Virus record (IMG/VR): IMGVR_UViG_3300027851_000099 | Span: 1-29,015 of that record | DNA from: a virus | Length of the DNA stretch: 29,015 nt | Strand: one strand, 5' to 3' | Made by a program: the position numbers and the translations under genes | In this document: positions 6,973 through 27,820 of the stretch, in pieces | Numbering within the stretch: the stretch's first letter is position 1 | How the letters are laid out: each line of letters opens with the position of its first letter | The notes under the pieces: generated by a model | Database searches by the model: none | Seen by the model: only the letters and a program-made list of their open reading frames with translations | What the model was told of the DNA's origin: nothing

Positions 6973-7539
6973 TCAAACACTCATCCCCGGCGCCTCAAGG
7001 GAGGCATTAACCCTGACTGTTAACAGAGAGCCGTGGAGCAGTAAAGTGGAAAGGTTAAGTCCACCGTCTTTGGTGATCTTCAGCTTAACTTCACCTGACC
7101 TTCGAACGTCCATCACTATACCTTCGACTTCGGCCAAGAACGTACCCGCTTTGACAGATACCTCGTCGCCTTTGCGGAAGATACACTCGGGACCAAGTAT
7201 TGACGGTTCGGGGACAACCCAATGGTCAATGGCGTAAACTTCCTTGTCAGAACAGGTTGCGTACCCGCCGTGCGGTAGACGCATGATCTTGACGAACGGG
7301 AACTTGCGCTCAACATAGTTCGCCCAGTAGAGGTCGCCTGTCCATTGGATGAACAGGAAGTTGCCCAGGAGCGGGACGTCGCATTCGACCCGCTCCCGGT
7401 TGCGCCCCACCCGCTTCTCTACGCGGATGGTTGGACACTGCACGCCGGTCTTGTCGATGCCAAGCTCGTGGGCGTAGTTGCGCAGCGCGTCAAGCTGCTT
7501 GAGGGCATCGGAAGGTCGGCAGCGCAGTATCAGGAACAT
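6973..7539 (-). CDS. NusG/RfaH-like transcription elongation factor
   Basis: This 188-residue protein has the two-domain plan of NusG. Residues 1-110 resemble the NGN domain: a first strand MFLILRCRPSDAL, then the hallmark region ECDVPLLGNFLFIQW (52-66) that parallels the PGYVFV element of NusG. Residues ~120-175 carry a KOW-like beta-barrel, with FRKGDEVSVKAGTFLAEVEGIV matching the GD.V.V..G.F....G.V KOW pattern. NusG-type factors bind RNA polymerase and reduce pausing or termination. It sits directly upstream of the terminase and head genes, so a role in letting polymerase read through the long leftward operon is likely but inferred. ATG at 7539 overlaps the upstream stop (TGATG). No search was run; the KOW half is the stronger evidence. 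Confidence 0.8.
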   Translation of the reverse strand: MFLILRCRPSDALKQLDALRNYAHELGIDKTGVQCPTIRVEKRVGRNRERVECDVPLLGNFLFIQWTGDLYWANYVERKFPFVKIMRLPHGGYATCSDKEVYAIDHWVVPEPSILGPECIFRKGDEVSVKAGTFLAEVEGIVMDVRRSGEVKLKITKDGGLNLSTLLLHGSLLTVRVNASLEAPGMSV

Positions 7540-7772
7540 CAGGTCGGGCTCGGGAGGTTCACAAGGACGAAGATGGTGATGAGGAAGAACGTCACCAGCA
7601 TCACAGCGAGTGCCCAGCGAGCCCACACGGGCAGGTCGGGGATGCGCTTGTAGCCGAAGCCGTGGCAGTTGTGGCAGGGGAGGCCGAAACCGCTCTCAGT
7701 CATCTCGCTGCCCGTACCGTTACAGGTCTCGCAGATGTAATGGCGGGGAGTCGCAGCATAGTGTCCGTACAT
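7539..7772 (-). CDS. Membrane protein with DnaJ-type zinc finger
   Basis: This 77-residue protein contains two CxxCxGxG repeats (CETCNGTG near residue 14 and CHNCHGFG near residue 33), the zinc-finger repeats of DnaJ. They are followed by a ~22-residue hydrophobic helix (residues ~52-74, from WALAVM to LVNL). With Arg/Lys before the helix, the zinc finger should face the cytoplasm. There is no J domain. It is coupled to the NusG-like gene by a TGATG overlap. Such short DnaJ-finger proteins may bind unfolded proteins or redox partners; the function is unknown. Confidence 0.75.
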   Translation of the reverse strand: MYGHYAATPRHYICETCNGTGSEMTESGFGLPCHNCHGFGYKRIPDLPVWARWALAVMLVTFFLITIFVLVNLPSPT

Positions 7773-11899: not shown

Positions 11900-12093
11900 T
11901 CGTCTTCTCCATGATTGATGTAGTACCGGCGCTGACCACACACTGTCTCAGCCCACCGGGGTTCGCTTCTACCTGTAGGGAGCATCCGACGCTCGTTCAA
12001 CAGGGGTATGCCCGGCAACTGCTTTGAACGGTTAACGGCCTCGCAGTACAGCTGAGGTCCGAGCCTTGGGGTCACCGTGTCCGTTTCGTCCAT
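11896..12093 (-). CDS. Hypothetical protein (65 aa)
   Basis: A short Arg- and Pro-containing protein with two Cys residues. Its stop overlaps the MazG-like start as ATGA. The start at 12093 has only a weak site (GAGGCGAG). Using it creates a 62-base overlap with the upstream gene, unusually long for this genome. Either the real start is further in, or one of the two overlapping ends is wrong. No family is recognised. Confidence 0.45.
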   Translation of the reverse strand: MDETDTVTPRLGPQLYCEAVNRSKQLPGIPLLNERRMLPTGRSEPRWAETVCGQRRYYINHGEDE

Positions 12094-15640: not shown

Positions 15641-15760
15641 TCAGAGTCCCTTCAGGGCGTTGCGTGCGTTGAGGATGAACTGGGCGCGCAGTGCGCCCGA
15701 AGCGGTGGAAGCGTGCTTGCGCCAGTAGGCAGCACGCTTCAGGCGGACAGCGGCGGCCAT
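15641..15760 (-). CDS. Very small basic protein (39 aa)
   Basis: A 40-codon frame begins MAAAVRLKRAAYWRKHAST and ends RNALKGL, one base after the stop of the gene before it and one base before the next start. It is strongly basic and helical. The exact fit between neighbours supports translation; the ribosome site is weak, suggesting coupling to the upstream gene. Confidence 0.5.
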   Translation of the reverse strand: MAAAVRLKRAAYWRKHASTASGALRAQFILNARNALKGL

Positions 15761-15761
15761 C

Positions 15762-15941
15762 TTAGCGGTACCCGTCTGCTACCCACTCGTTCTGGCGCAG
15801 GCTGACCTGGACCAGCTCGAAGGACATGCCACCGAACCCCTTACCCTGCATGCGGGTGATGAACGCTTCCGCCTGCTTGACGGAGCGGAACATTGCGACG
15901 GGCTGAACTGAGTTGTGGAAGACGTGCACAGCATGGGTCAT
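15762..15941 (-). CDS. Small protein behind the second leftward promoter module (59 aa)
   Basis: ATG at 15941 follows GGAG ten bases upstream and lies directly after the promoter-hairpin module at 15959-16007. The protein has a strand-helix-strand character (HAVHVFHNSVQ, SVKQAEAFITRM, GGMSFELVQVSL), perhaps a small ferredoxin-like fold. The family is not recognised. Likely an early gene because of its own promoter. Confidence 0.62.
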   Translation of the reverse strand: MTHAVHVFHNSVQPVAMFRSVKQAEAFITRMQGKGFGGMSFELVQVSLRQNEWVADGYR

Positions 15942-15958
15942 TTCGACAATTCTCCGAA

Positions 15959-15972
15959 GCGCAAAAGTGCGC
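15959..15972 (-). other. 5' hairpin of promoter module, leftward copy 2
   Basis: On the minus strand, GCGCA-CTTT-TGCGC forms a 5-bp stem with a 4-base loop starting a few bases after the expected transcription start. It stands at the same place as the hairpins at 16511-16525 and 27161-27176 but has a different sequence, so it is the pairing that is kept. Confidence 0.55.
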
Positions 15973-15978
15973 AACACC

Positions 15979-16007
15979 CTTCTAGGATGCTGCGCCATCA
16001 GATGCAA
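15979..16007 (-). promoter_or_regulatory. Promoter of the shared module, leftward copy 2
   Basis: TTGCAT (16002-16007) and TAGAAG (15979-15984) are 17 bases apart, as in a sigma-70-type promoter. The sequence around the -10 (ATCCTAGAAGGGTGTTGC) is nearly the same as in the two other copies. It would drive the small gene at 15762-15941 and the genes after it. Confidence 0.68.
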
Positions 16008-16036
16008 ACGGTATCCGTCCAATGGTTAACGGAAGG

Positions 16037-16267
16037 TCACCCGGCGGTGATGCGATAGTCCTGCGCGTGCAGGAGACGGTAGAGGGTGACCCGGTTGTCT
16101 CCGGAGTCATTGCCGATGCAGGCTCGCAGTGCGTCAAGCAGTGGCTGACCGTCGGTGTCCGCGCTGGGCGCGAAAGCTTGGTGCAGACGCTCGAGGTTGT
16201 GCTGCGCTGTACCGATCGGCTGGGACAGCAGGAGGTTGATGTTGGTCTGGATGGTGCTGCGGATCAT
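16037..16267 (-). CDS. Small helical protein (76 aa)
   Basis: ATG at 16267 has AAGGAG six bases upstream. It is mostly helical, with polar loops (GNDSGDN) and an end resembling YRLLHAQDYRITAG. No family is recognised. It sits between the two leftward promoter modules, so it is read from the first. Confidence 0.6.
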   Translation of the reverse strand: MIRSTIQTNINLLLSQPIGTAQHNLERLHQAFAPSADTDGQPLLDALRACIGNDSGDNRVTLYRLLHAQDYRITAG

Positions 16268-16290
16268 GGTGGGTGCTCCTTGGGTGCAGG

Positions 16291-16494
16291 TTACGGGCAG
16301 ACGCTGATGGTACCGTCCTGGACACGGTAGTCCCTGCGAACGATGCGCTTGGCATGTGCGACCGCACTGGTGTAGTTCGGTGCCCATGGGGTGAAGATGA
16401 TGTGCTCCTCAAACGAGAACGCCCACTGACCCTCACCGCGAGGGGCCTTACCGTGGGCGAACTGATACTGCTCGGTGGACACCTGGATAGCCAT
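16291..16494 (-). CDS. First leftward gene, small phage protein (67 aa)
   Basis: ATG at 16494 follows AGGAGAT and lies directly after the first leftward promoter-hairpin module. The N-terminal half (HGKAPRGEGQWAFSF) resembles a small protein of unknown function I associate with phage and bacterial genomes, in which GK.PRG.G.WAF is followed by an alternating strand and a helix (NYTSAVAHAKRIVR). As the first gene of the leftward transcript it is likely expressed early and strongly. Confidence 0.66.
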   Translation of the reverse strand: MAIQVSTEQYQFAHGKAPRGEGQWAFSFEEHIIFTPWAPNYTSAVAHAKRIVRRDYRVQDGTISVCP

Positions 16495-16510
16495 TTCGTC
16501 AATCTCCTGC

Positions 16511-16525
16511 GCGGCACAGCGCCGC
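16511..16525 (-). other. 5' hairpin of promoter module, leftward copy 1
   Basis: On the minus strand, GCGGC-GCTGT-GCCGC makes a 5-bp stem and 5-base loop just downstream of the expected start and before the AGGAG site. It is comparable with the hairpins of the other two modules. Confidence 0.55.
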
Positions 16526-16531
16526 ACCACC

Positions 16532-16560
16532 CTTCTAGGATACACTCGGATACGTTACAA
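16532..16560 (-). promoter_or_regulatory. Promoter of the shared module, leftward copy 1 (main leftward promoter)
   Basis: TTGTAA (16555-16560) and TAGAAG (16532-16537) are 17 bases apart. The shared TATCCTAGAAGGGTG sequence overlaps the -10. It is upstream of the first gene of the whole leftward block, so it is the best candidate for its main promoter. Confidence 0.7.
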
Positions 16561-16568
16561 GCCCGATG

Positions 16569-16613
16569 GTGTCGGATGCATCACATGATTAACAAGGGAT
16601 TATTGACCGACAC
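16569..16613. repeat. 7-bp inverted repeat upstream of the main leftward promoter
   Basis: GTGTCGG (16569-16575) and CCGACAC (16607-16613) are perfect inverted arms 31 bases apart, beginning nine bases upstream of the -35 box. The spacer is AT-rich and includes a GATGCATC palindrome. The position fits an activator or repressor site, but the function is unproved. Confidence 0.35.
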
Positions 16614-16820
16614 TGCCCACATCTGATGACCACACTTTAGCACGCGCAACCGGCCGCATCTTCAGGGTGATCGGCTCTCGAGCAGCTGAACCCCTTCGTT
16701 TCCGGGCCATATGCCCTACTTTCGACGTATTCGAGCGTACAGCGAGTTTCGCTCAAACTCCGACTACCCATACCGAATTTTGATTTCTTCGAATTTCGCC
16801 TAAAACATGGCTTTTTTGAC

Positions 16821-16980
16821 GCCTACCTTTTCAGGTGGCTTCAGGCCTACAGCTTCCTCATGTCGGGAGTATATCCGGGTCGGCAGTACCCACTCAGGCG
16901 CAACACCGTGGACCATGCTCGTAAGCTGGAGTCGTGTTGCAGGGAGGGGTTCACTTTCCTGTGGCAGAGCTGTAGGCCTG
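16821..16980 (-). ncRNA. Candidate structured RNA with a multi-branched fold
   Basis: A perfect 13-bp inverted repeat (16842-16854 with 16968-16980) encloses three more paired elements. These are AGGGA/TTCCT (16941-16945, 16956-16960), GCAACAC/GTGTTGC (16900-16906, 16934-16940) holding an inner CCA-GCT/AGCTGG hairpin (913-929), and GAGT+GGGT with ACCC+ACTC (16867-16895). This makes a four-way junction. A further hairpin (16821-16839) follows, and on the minus strand its loop is GAAA and the inner loop is UACG, both common tetraloops, which is why I favour that strand. A minus-strand frame (16800-16994) coincides with it but looks like chance. No known RNA family is recognised. Confidence 0.42.
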
Positions 16981-17132
16981 TTGCGCGGGTTCAATGGTGT
17001 TGAGTTCAGTGATGTTGGTCCTCATGGCGTGCGCTGACTGTTGTCTCCTGCCCCGCACGCTGGGGAGTCTGGCGTGTGACACCAGCTTGTCGTCCGCTGT
17101 TCGTAGCCTGGGCAAAGCGGAACCCTGTGATA

Positions 17133-17161
17133 CGGTGTTACCCCGCCTTAGGGGTGCACCG
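17133..17161. other. Stable GC-rich stem-loop
   Basis: CGGTG-tta-CCCC-GCCTTA-GGGG-tg-CACCG pairs over nine base pairs with a small internal loop. A second hairpin, CTGGCGT/ACACCAG with a 3-base loop, lies at 17069-17085, and CCCC/GGGG at 17051-17065. They extend the folded character of the region to the right of the candidate RNA. Confidence 0.4.
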
Positions 17162-17230
17162 CAGCTACACCCCGCACGGTAAGCAGCATCCAACCCCATG
17201 CCAAGCATGAGCTGCACCTTGATCCACCCG

Positions 17231-17259
17231 CAGCACCCCGCAGCACCCCGCAGCACCCC
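17231..17259. repeat. Short tandem repeat, 10-bp unit
   Basis: The unit CAGCACCCCG is present nearly three times in a row, preceded by a diverged partial unit. It lies in the non-coding region between the folded segment and the AT-rich patch. It may be iteron-like or just slippage. Confidence 0.7.
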
Positions 17260-17316
17260 ATTATGGGCAATAGCAGCCCGAGCACACATCTACTATCGCT
17301 GTAACCCCTGCAAACC

Positions 17317-17345
17317 TTGGGGTCTTACTGTACTATTAGTAAATT
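17317..17345 (+). promoter_or_regulatory. Candidate rightward promoter with overlapping direct repeats
   Basis: TTGGGG (17317-17322) and TAAATT (17340-17345) are 17 bases apart. TATTAGTA occurs at 17334-17341, touching the -10, and again at 17353-17360, 19 bases on, which could be a repressor site. Another imperfect direct repeat, TTTGCA(G/A)NGATC, follows at 17394-17405 and 17418-17429. The long leader to the first gene (~220 bases) is a weakness of this call. Confidence 0.4.
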
Positions 17346-17523
17346 AGCATATTATTAGTAGATAGAGTGTCTATACCGTTACGATTACACACATTTGCAG
17401 CGATCACATATGTAACGTTTGCAATGATCGCGACGCGGGCGCGCAAAGCTATCGGCCGGTTCTCGTTACCGTTACCCGTCGCCTTTTTCAAAGTGCACAT
17501 AACCCTTGTCCCGCACATGGATG

Positions 17524-25273: not shown

Positions 25274-27098
25274 CGACCGGGACTATCAGACCGAAGCGGT
25301 CACCAGTATCTGGACCTACTTCGCCACTCGTTCGGGCAACCCCATCGTCGCGATGCCCACGGGGACCGGTAAGTCGATTGTCATCGGGCGCTTCCTCCAA
25401 TCCGTCTATGCGCGGTTCCCAGCGCAGCGGGTGCTGATGCTGACGCACGTCAAGGAACTGATTCAGCAGAACTTCGAGAAGCTCAAGACAATGTGGCCGT
25501 TCGCACCTGCGGGCATCTACAGCGCGGGGCTCAACAGCAGGGACGCCAGCCAGGCGATCACGTTTGCGGGTATTGCATCGGTCGCCAAGAAGTGGGCCAT
25601 GTTCGGCCACGTCCACCTTGTGCTGATCGACGAGTGTCACCTGCTCAGCCCGGACGACGAGACCATGTACCAAGCGTTCATCGCTGGTCTCAAGTCGATC
25701 AACCCCATGCTCAAGGTGATCGGGTTCACTGCAACGCCCTGGCGGCTGGGGCACGGTAAGCTCACGGACCCCAAGGTCAAGATCGTCGACGGGGAGGAGG
25801 TTGAGATCCCCTCGCTGTTCACCGACGTCTGCTTCGACATTACCGGTATCGAAGCGTTCAACCGCCTCATCGCTGAAGGGTACCTGCTCCCGCTGGTGCC
25901 GAAGCGGATGAAGACCGTGCTGGACGTCGATGGGGTGCATATGCGGGGCGGGGAGTTCATCGAGAAGGAACTGCAGACCGCTGTCGACAAGGACGAGATC
26001 ACGGAAGCTGCACTCAACGAAGCTATTCAGATTGGCGAGGACCGGCACAAGTGGCTCATCTTCGCAGCGGGTACGGAGCACGCCGACAACATCGGTGAGA
26101 TGCTGAACATGATGGGGATCCCGACCGGGGTCGTGCACAGCAAGCGCGAGGGGCGCGACCAGACGATCGCCGACTTCAAAGCGGGTCGATTGCGCGCGGT
26201 CGTGAACAACAATGTGCTGACCACAGGTTTTGACGAACCGGGTATCGACATGATCATCGTGCTTCGCCCGACGGCGTCCGCGGTGCTATGGGTTCAGATG
26301 CTGGGGCGCGGTACGCGACCGTTCTGGACCGCTGGCTACGACCTTGACACCCTCGAGGGGCGCATCCAGTCGATCAAGGCCAGCACGAAGCATGACTGTC
26401 TGGTGCTCGACTACGCTGCGAACACCAAGCGGCTCGGACCCATCAACGATCCGCTGGTGCCGCGTCGCAAGGGACAGGGTGGCGGGGACGCCCCGGTCAA
26501 GTGCTGCGAGAGGTGCGACACATGGGTCCACGCCAGCTTGCGCAACTGCCCCATCTGCGGGTTCGAGTTCACCTTCGAGACCAAGCTGAAGCAGTCCGCA
26601 AGCTCGGAGAAGCTGATCAAGGGGGACAACCCCATCGTCGAGGTCTTCAAGGTCGACCATGTGACCGTGGAGAAGCACACGAAGGTCGGCGCCCCGCCGA
26701 TGGTGCGTATCAACTACTATTGCGGGCTGAAGCGGTTCAGCGAGTTCGTGTGCCCCGAGCACCAGAACTGGGCGCAGAAGAAGGCGCGTGCATGGTGGAA
26801 GGCTCGCAGCCCCGAGCCGATGCCGGAGAGCACTGACGAGGTGCTCGAAGCGACGGGCATGCTACCACCTGCAACGCACCTGCGCATCTGGATCAACAAG
26901 CCAGGCGGGTACCCGGAGATCCTGGCTACCTGCCTTGACGGTACCGCGTTCGGCGCAATCGAGCGGTCCGATAGCTGGGAGCCCCCGCCCGTGGAGACGG
27001 AGCTGCGCTCGCAGTTGCACCGCAGCGTTATCCTCGAAGGGGAGCTGTCCCGGTCCAACGCACCCTTCTACAGCGCCGACGACGATATCCCGTTCTGA
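25263..27098 (+). CDS. SF2 helicase with zinc finger, RadD-like
   Basis: This 611-residue protein has all the main helicase motifs: Walker A MPTGTGKSIV (31-40), DECH box LIDECHLL (~121-128), motif III FTATPWR (~155) and motif VI QMLGRGTRPF (~345). After the helicase core comes a four-cysteine zinc finger (CERC and CPIC, ~415-432) followed by a C-terminal domain with YYCGLKRFSEF and CPEH. That order is similar to RadD/YejH, which aids recombination. It starts inside the last codons of the nuclease gene (11-base overlap), so the two are probably coupled and may act together at DNA ends or forks. Confidence 0.87.
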   Translation: MAFNDRDYQTEAVTSIWTYFATRSGNPIVAMPTGTGKSIVIGRFLQSVYARFPAQRVLMLTHVKELIQQNFEKLKTMWPFAPAGIYSAGLNSRDASQAITFAGIASVAKKWAMFGHVHLVLIDECHLLSPDDETMYQAFIAGLKSINPMLKVIGFTATPWRLGHGKLTDPKVKIVDGEEVEIPSLFTDVCFDITGIEAFNRLIAEGYLLPLVPKRMKTVLDVDGVHMRGGEFIEKELQTAVDKDEITEAALNEAIQIGEDRHKWLIFAAGTEHADNIGEMLNMMGIPTGVVHSKREGRDQTIADFKAGRLRAVVNNNVLTTGFDEPGIDMIIVLRPTASAVLWVQMLGRGTRPFWTAGYDLDTLEGRIQSIKASTKHDCLVLDYAANTKRLGPINDPLVPRRKGQGGGDAPVKCCERCDTWVHASLRNCPICGFEFTFETKLKQSASSEKLIKGDNPIVEVFKVDHVTVEKHTKVGAPPMVRINYYCGLKRFSEFVCPEHQNWAQKKARAWWKARSPEPMPESTDEVLEATGMLPPATHLRIWINKPGGYPEILATCLDGTAFGAIERSDSWEPPPVETELRSQLHRSVILEGELSRSNAPFYSADDDIPF

Positions 27099-27125
27099 TT
27101 TTGTTAACCATCCTGCAGATACGGC

Positions 27126-27154
27126 TTGTATCAACATCAAGCCTATCCTAGAAG
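27126..27154 (+). promoter_or_regulatory. Promoter of the shared module, rightward copy
   Basis: TTGTAT (27126-27131) and TAGAAG (27149-27154) are exactly 17 bases apart. TATCCTAGAAGGGTGTTGC matches the two leftward copies. It starts 28 bases after the helicase stop. Confidence 0.7.
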
Positions 27155-27160
27155 GGTGTT

Positions 27161-27176
27161 GCCGCAACGGTGCGGC
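27161..27176 (+). other. 5' hairpin of promoter module, rightward copy
   Basis: GCCGC-AACGGT-GCGGC gives a 5-bp stem with a 6-base loop at the expected start of the message, extendable by a GTG/CAC pairing around it. It corresponds to the leftward hairpins but has different arms. Confidence 0.55.
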
Positions 27177-27199
27177 GCACAAATTGGAGTGAAACTGAA

Positions 27200-27820
27200 A
27201 TGACCAACTTCGCTGAAATGGGTAAGGAAGCTCTTCGGACCGAAATGCGTGCCGCTGGCCTGTCCTACGCCAAGCTGAACAACGACGGGATGCGCGCCGC
27301 GCTGGAAGCGCACCGGTTCGCACAGCCCGCAGTGATGCGGAGCGTCGACGATGAGCGTGCTGCCTACGTTGAAATGGCGAAGAAGATGGACACCGCGCTC
27401 CTGGGCATCGACGGTGTTGAAGGTCACTGCCCGTGCTGCGGTATCGATCTGTCCAACGGCGTCTGGACGCAAGACGACGCCAACACCCCGGAGCAGGCCA
27501 AGGGTTGGGTCCGCTCCATCGCATGCCTCGGTTGTGGTGGGGAATGGGGTCCCCCGGCCCGCAAGTCGGGCGTCGACCGTCACTCGGGCACTGGTCTGAA
27601 GATCGAGCAGAACCGGGAAGAGCGCAACGGCGTCAAGCGCCCCTCGGCTGGCGGTAAGTGTCGGCAGGTGTGGGACGCCCTGGATGCGAACCGCGCCTCG
27701 ACCAAGACCCTGCCCACTGTGGCAACCGCCAAGCAGATCGCTACCGAGCAGGGTTGGAACGTTTCCAACGCCGCAATCGAGTTCTACCAGTGGCGCAAGT
27801 TCAACGGGCTGGGGAAGTGA
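27200..27820 (+). CDS. Zinc-binding protein behind the rightward promoter module (206 aa)
   Basis: Residues ~6-40 form a helix-extended loop-helix (KEALRTEMRAAGLSYAKLNNDGMRAALEAH), like a small SAP/HeH DNA-binding fold. A zinc ribbon follows (CPCC at 77-80, CLGC at 109-112). The C-terminal ~45 residues (GKCRQVWDALD onward to SNAAIEFYQWRKFNGL) resemble a DNA-binding helix-turn-helix module I associate with other phage and plasmid proteins. The start ATG is 45 bases after the -10 box, with GGAG 11 bases upstream. It is probably a DNA-binding regulator expressed early, but no experimental function is known to me. Confidence 0.68.
   Translation: MTNFAEMGKEALRTEMRAAGLSYAKLNNDGMRAALEAHRFAQPAVMRSVDDERAAYVEMAKKMDTALLGIDGVEGHCPCCGIDLSNGVWTQDDANTPEQAKGWVRSIACLGCGGEWGPPARKSGVDRHSGTGLKIEQNREERNGVKRPSAGGKCRQVWDALDANRASTKTLPTVATAKQIATEQGWNVSNAAIEFYQWRKFNGLGK

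Follow-up and report, generated by a model that had tools for sequence, protein, structure and literature searches.

Three promoter-like sequences in a 29,015-nt stretch of viral DNA (the whole analyzed stretch, here called the window) are each followed closely by an inverted repeat, a GGAG site, and a gene. This arrangement raises the question of whether the RNA fold at the start of these transcripts matters and, if so, how it acts. The window is a phage fragment whose replication genes resemble those of Queuovirinae. Its left part encodes terminase, portal, and head proteins on the minus strand, and its right part carries primase, Sak4-like, SSB-like, Cas4-type exonuclease, and helicase genes; the putative early genes lie between the terminase/portal/head genes and a divergent region. 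The nearest kin of the primase and of the gene at 27200 are found in Queuovirinae and their relatives, those of the capsid protein include a Paracoccus phage, and those of the terminase are other Pseudomonas phages. An alphaproteobacterial host is likely, although the terminase and primase relatives, mostly gammaproteobacterial phages, count against it. A near-identical contig, L023/L071 (L-numbers denote IMG/VR loci), repeats the third promoter.

Three promoters and their upstream boxes

The pattern TTGYAW-N17-TAGAAGGGTG has exactly three sites in the window, P1 to P3, and the next-best match has 2 mismatches. The first-pass annotation had described these three TTGYAW-N17 modules with a constant spacing of 17, and all three proved exact.

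16528-16560, minus strand: P1 promoter pattern, 0 mismatches
16555..16560, minus strand: P1 -35, TTGTAA
16528..16541, minus strand: P1 conserved block ATCCTAGAAGGGTG, -10 TAGAAG at 16532-16537
15975-16007, minus strand: P2 promoter pattern, 0 mismatches
16002..16007, minus strand: P2 -35, TTGCAT
15975..15988, minus strand: P2 conserved block ATCCTAGAAGGGTG, -10 TAGAAG at 15979-15984
27126-27158, plus strand: P3 promoter pattern, 0 mismatches
27126..27131, plus strand: P3 -35, TTGTAT
27145..27158, plus strand: P3 conserved block ATCCTAGAAGGGTG, -10 TAGAAG at 27149-27154

Around the -10, where about 10 near-identical bases had been reported, 14/14 bases are identical across P1, P2, and P3, and CCTAGAAGGGTG occurs 3 times in the whole record, each time at one of these promoters. 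Only 1 to 5 of the remaining 13 spacer bases agree between copies. An identical block within a divergent spacer is not simply the product of one recent duplication, and the 14-base block has probably been kept by selection. TAGAAG was taken as the -10 because the orthologous place in L005 has TTGACT-N17-TAGAGG and because CTAGAA fits the -10 of the Caulobacter RpoD consensus, TTGaCgS/GCtANAWC (PMC8144410); CTAGAA conforms to CTANAW, the mismatched positions being the first and last bases of GCTANAWC. All three sites thus have the alphaproteobacterial RpoD form, with a TTG -35, a spacing of ~17 bp, and a -10 like GCTANAWC/TAnAnn. TATCCT was rejected as the -10, being separated from the TTG by only 12 bp and standing in a register other than the one that L005 supports. 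An exact-pattern search for the module, with TTG at fixed spacing, found it in no other viral contig. A looser search that included the upstream box described below returned the near-identical L023 and three contigs without such a module, and GATGCARCGGTGCATC alone matched 41 contigs, from which only related phages were used.

Upstream of each promoter lies the sequence GTTAAYCAT, which is not matched exactly anywhere else in the window and is expected there ~0.09 times under a dinucleotide model. These boxes, overlooked in the first-pass annotation, are new here.

16585..16593, minus strand: P1 upstream box GTTAATCAT, differing from TTAACCAT at one base; 24 bp from the -35 and centred at about -63
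16022..16030, minus strand: P2 upstream box GTTAACCAT, a CtrA half-site; 14 bp from the -35 and centred at about -53
27103..27111, plus strand: P3 upstream box GTTAACCAT, a CtrA half-site; 14 bp from the -35 and centred at about -53

TTAACCAT is the half-site of CtrA, the alphaproteobacterial cell-cycle regulator (PMC3692519). Two boxes thus contain it exactly and one with a single change, all of them at P1 to P3; the P1 box reads TTAATCAT, which counts against a CtrA reading, and its gap to the -35 (24 bp, versus 14 and 14 bp) places it one helical turn farther out. The full CtrA site, TTAA-N7-TTAA, does not occur in the window, so that the match is to half-sites only, and we do not file these promoters with the CtrA-regulated phage promoters of PMC9437464. 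A possible fourth box, GTTAACCGT at 12028 on the minus strand, was not counted because it overlaps a stop codon. TTAA occurs only 16 times in this GC-rich contig; four copies, not N7 spaced, fall within 80 bp (7007-7085) near the end of an open reading frame at 6973-7626 on the minus strand.

The GTTAACCAT string also appears in MMDA13, a phage of Sphingomonas, which encodes a homologue of the 27200 product (67% identity across the C-terminal part). Four copies of an imperfect repeat, TGCGTTAACCAT, precede the early gene gp54 of this phage (PMC7472734). Exact copies of this repeat were seen in the phage sequence, and GTTAACCAT is common to the MMDA13 repeats and the window. The repeats overlap predicted CtrA sites, and promoters of other alphaproteobacterial phages are bound and regulated by CtrA, some being activated and one repressed (PMC9437464). 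The related locus L080 has a full CtrA site before TATAAT and a weak leader stem. GTTAAYCAT is absent from the 50-kb stretches of JG054, PaMx25, and VPv62, and that of HD01 has one isolated copy. The GGGTG that follows the -10 had been suggested as a possible phage-specific operator or initiation signal. The operator idea is half right at most: the box that looks most like a regulator site lies upstream, is common to MMDA13, and matches a host regulator, and the -10 itself agrees with that of alphaproteobacterial RpoD.

Leader hairpins and their conservation at the 27200 gene

From an RpoD promoter of this type, transcription would be expected to start 6 to 8 nt past the -10. All three copies have a perfect stem of 5 to 6 bp that begins in the same register, 6 nt after TAGAAG, which is the predicted +1. 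The pairs of arms listed in the first-pass annotation are present as given, as are the GGAG sites and start codons (ATG at 16494 and 15941 on the minus strand and at 27200 on the plus strand).

16511..16525, minus strand: P1 leader hairpin GCGGC-GCTGT-GCCGC, from the predicted +1 (16525)
15959..15972, minus strand: P2 leader hairpin GCGCA-CTTT-TGCGC, from the predicted +1 (15972)
27161..27176, plus strand: P3 leader hairpin GCCGCA-ACGG-TGCGGC, from the predicted +1 (27161); fold conserved in relatives
16291..16494, minus strand: P1 gene, 67 amino acids, relatives only in Rhizobium phages; GGAG at 16504-16507
15762..15941, minus strand: P2 gene, 59 amino acids, no relatives found; GGAG at 15952-15955
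27200..27820, plus strand: P3 gene, 206 amino acids, PHROG 21588 (unknown function); GGAG at 27186-27189

GGAG lies outside the main stems at P1 to P3, so the hairpins do not hide the ribosome site, and the earlier suggestion that they control translation in this way does not fit. The stems are followed by no T run and are therefore not terminators; an intrinsic terminator or attenuator was rejected, a terminator scan having also returned none of the three hairpins. The Rfam 15 covariance models gave no match up to an E value of 1 at 15700-17500 or 27050-27260.

Taken singly, the window hairpins are unremarkable, within reach of GC-rich sequence, and each is weak evidence. Folding energies relative to shuffled sequences gave z scores of -1.05 (P1), -0.57 (P2), and -1.70 (P3), and the share of random 40-mers of the contig that did as well was 4%, 22%, and 6%, respectively, as would be expected if the promoters were real and the hairpins chance products of base composition. 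For any single fixed register in this contig, the probability of a perfect stem of 5 bp or more is 0.0107 per site, a value qualified by the fact that the register was picked after it had been seen. Against chance stand the identical register in all three copies and a stem conserved at the orthologous leader in distant phages, and we judge that explanation distinctly unlikely for the set; the P2 hairpin taken alone may be due to chance. The leaders of the Rhizobium-phage relatives of the P1 gene do not contain the module and no relatives of the P2 gene were found, so that the claim of pairing kept while sequence changes lacks comparative support for the hairpins at 16511 and 15959.

At the third gene, comparison was possible. 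Orthologues of the 27200 gene in Pseudomonas, Variovorax, Vibrio, Alteromonas, Acinetobacter, Sphingomonas, and metagenomic phages keep the promoter, leader hairpin, and ribosome binding site. The gene follows the helicase gene in the window and in many relatives (the helicase often ending in DDDIPF), with promoter, hairpin, and ribosome site in the gap between. Leaders were read from IMG/VR loci and named phages, and 20 were chosen to limit redundancy; a stem was scored if it had at least 4 bp and started no more than 13 nt from the -10. When pairing was examined in these relatives, as the first-pass annotation had proposed, it proved to be kept at this gene: a stem is present in 18/20 leaders, with unrelated arms. 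Arms read from the leaders include the following.

Window P3: GCCGCA/TGCGGC
L006: GACGCA/TGCGTC
Nipunavirus: GATGCA/TGCATC
L085: TGCACT/AGTGCA
pVco-14: GAAGC/GCTTC
MiCath: CAGGC/GCCTG
R7M: GTGTTTCATGTG/CACATGAAACAC
L093: TGCGCAACA/TGTTGCGCA
L082: GGCGCGGT/GCCGCGCC

Six leaders could be aligned without internal gaps, and all 36/36 cells pair (100%); 2/6 pairs are doubly compensated and one further pair is kept via U-G. This covariation signal was lost when the partners were slid, and 4/500 shuffles reached the observed score. Fisher's combined P value was 8e-10 against dinucleotide shuffles (20 leaders), 4e-6 without the three best leaders, and 6e-6 against random 40-mers from the same contigs (17 leaders); these values serve as guides, since the -10s of relatives were assigned by eye and the leaders, some sharing ancestry, are not fully independent. 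The leader of L099 (1 of the 20) has no stem and that of L092 only a chance-level one by the same scoring. The L092 leader also shows a longer-range pairing of ~12 bp, GGTCCCGGG with CCCGGGACC and neighbours, enclosing ~45 nt, and is preceded by a TTGACA/TATAGT promoter, in the 170 bases upstream of position 2842. Pairing rather than sequence is thus conserved in the 27200-gene leaders, as in known stabilizing stem-loops. The Queuovirinae and Nipunavirus literature, searched by title and abstract with most subscription journals outside the search, and the MMDA13 paper, by text search, yielded no report of this leader hairpin.

A dyad overlapping or just past the -10 would also be well placed as a DNA operator for a repressor or activator, the RNA fold being incidental, and dyads surround the -10 itself in the major capsid promoters of JG054 and HD01. 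However, the arms differ between three copies within one genome, and G.U pairs, present in the stems of L008, L088, L096, and L101, keep the symmetry of RNA and not of DNA, which points to RNA as the level at which the stems act; we consider an operator quite improbable.

Many of L006-L008 and L084-L101 have CATG just before or at the start of the stem, and so does the stemless L099. Where CATG precedes or overlaps the stem, ACG is often the fourth codon, and the 5′ element could be a leaderless short open reading frame encoding a leader peptide, with pairing as a by-product. The frame, however, ranges from 2 codons (L085) to an in-frame fusion with the gene (L008, L093, and L098), and the ATG is missing at that place in the window, PaMx25, MiCath, and pVco-14, which makes a leader peptide very improbable.

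The loop is a different matter. An ACG loop recurs in window P3, L006, L008, L084-L095 (including L093), L098, L101, and MiCath, and the stem of most relatives starts 7 to 12 nt after the -10, leaving some 5′ bases unpaired. These two features mean that recognition by a protein has to be taken seriously as an alternative, at the 27200 gene at least: the loop would be read and the stem, whose sequence changes while ACG is kept, would present it. Candidates are the 27200 product acting autogenously (it has a zinc-ribbon-like CPCC...CLGC motif and a conserved C-terminal domain) or another RNA-binding protein of phage or host. Loops of other types occur at P1 (GCTGT), P2 (CTTT), L005, L010, L080, L082, L096, PBPA162, pVco-14, and HD01; part of the loop identity is explained by shared ancestry, and the 27200 product has no known RNA-binding domain in Pfam. 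On balance, we regard protein recognition as unlikely. A broader form of the idea is that phages have a scattered class of leader RNAs, marked by a stem near +1 whose sequence is free and by an ACG-type loop; a phage-encoded regulator (perhaps the 27200 product) would bind them, and in the alphaproteobacterial branch they would be coupled to CtrA. This we find decidedly doubtful; if true, one phage would combine cell-cycle-timed transcription with RNA-level control of early genes.

Other conserved non-coding elements

A second non-coding block, GACTCCCC-N5/6-GGGGCAGGAGACMACA, lies in the divergent region, at ~16990-17170 on the minus strand of the window, where several hundred bases carry no annotated gene. 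It was found in all Nipunavirus-type phages identified, in the window, in HD01 (as GACTCCCC...TTGGGCAGGAGACCACA), and in L106; the Nipunavirus phages have a TATAGT-like promoter just upstream of it. The block has no Rfam match, and no tRNA was found there; it is a candidate for a structured RNA in phages of Queuovirinae type and exceeds the leader hairpins in length. The major capsid promoter of JG054 has a long dyad across its -10, GGCTCATGC-TACATT...GCATGAGCC, and that of HD01 has the same dyad with compensating changes, GACTCATGC...GCATGAGTC; this dyad is possibly an operator or a second leader fold.

Conserved non-coding block: L067, 47500-47880 (plus); L068, 49640-50000 (plus); L070, 46830-47400 (plus); L069, 10286-10312 (minus); L104-L106
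Capsid-promoter dyads, upstream of the major capsid gene: L067, 5394-5543; L070, 5679-5812

Proposed mechanism and comparison with known systems

The reading that we prefer, tentatively and at slightly less than even likelihood, is a reusable phage cassette composed of a host RNA polymerase promoter, probable modulation by CtrA, and an mRNA stem-loop that shields the 5′ end. Its basis in the sequence is the conserved promoter block together with the boxes upstream of it, the shared register of the stems, and the fold kept at the 27200 gene; to these it would add a start site, CtrA binding, 5′-end protection, early timing, and an alphaproteobacterial host. Host RNA polymerase would start from the alphaproteobacterial-type housekeeping promoter TTGYAW-N17-TAGAAG, and CtrA would probably modulate it through the half-site, adding cell-cycle control, a step that draws on sequence and on what has been published for other phages. 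The predicted start is the first base of the left stem arm or a base next to it, and each mRNA would therefore open with a small stem-loop. With such a stem-loop, the single-stranded 5′ end would most likely be too short for RNase E and the pyrophosphohydrolase RppH, and the mRNA would live longer while the ribosome site stays uncovered. RppH and RNase E rely on single-stranded 5′ ends, which explains stabilizing 5′ structures (PMC3997798).

With sequestration and termination set aside, 5′-end shielding would be the simplest mechanism, and the position at the predicted +1 fits the earlier proposal of 5′-end protection. Terminator, ribosome-site sequestration, leader open reading frame, and DNA operator were all considered and ranked below it. 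Counting against shielding are the conserved loop, which it does not need, the unpaired 5′ bases of most relatives, and the L099 leader, which has no stem. Position and the shared promoter make it plausible that the three genes form a co-regulated early set, as first proposed.

If the cassette reading is right, the phage places a simple unit (regulator box, promoter, and 5′ hairpin) before several genes, the reading of the host cell cycle via CtrA extends to another phage lineage and to half-sites, and very distant phages have retained the 5′-end structure of one particular mRNA. Protection from 5′-end-dependent decay would then be testable in cultured Pseudomonas phages, such as PaMx25 and NP1.

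The closest parallels to the hairpins are the 5′-terminal stabilizing stem-loops of E. coli ompA and papA, as summarized in PMC3997798 from works cited there. In both cases a stem-loop stands at the 5′ end (here predicted), separate from and upstream of the ribosome site, with pairing kept and sequence free. Unlike those stem-loops as summarized, the window hairpins stand ahead of several phage genes, always with the one promoter type, and a loop motif recurs in orthologues; stabilization here is a prediction. The upstream boxes resemble those of MMDA13 and other CtrA-controlled alphaproteobacterial phage promoters ("lytic deferment"; Mascolo et al. 2022, PMC9437464), which likewise have CtrA-type boxes upstream of lytic-type siphophage genes; MMDA13 also shares the GTTAACCAT string and has a related 27200-family gene. 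In contrast to the systems of PMC9437464, the window has one half-site per promoter over three promoters, without TTAA-N7-TTAA sites or a dense cluster, and its boxes go together with a -10 block that is the same in all three and with a leader hairpin. As in alphaproteobacterial RpoD promoters (PMC8144410), CTAGAA fits CTANAW at 17 bp (counted between hexamers) from a TTG -35, but the -35 lacks the AC of the Caulobacter consensus, and the 14-base block runs through the discriminator (GGGTG), exceeding what RpoD alone would demand.
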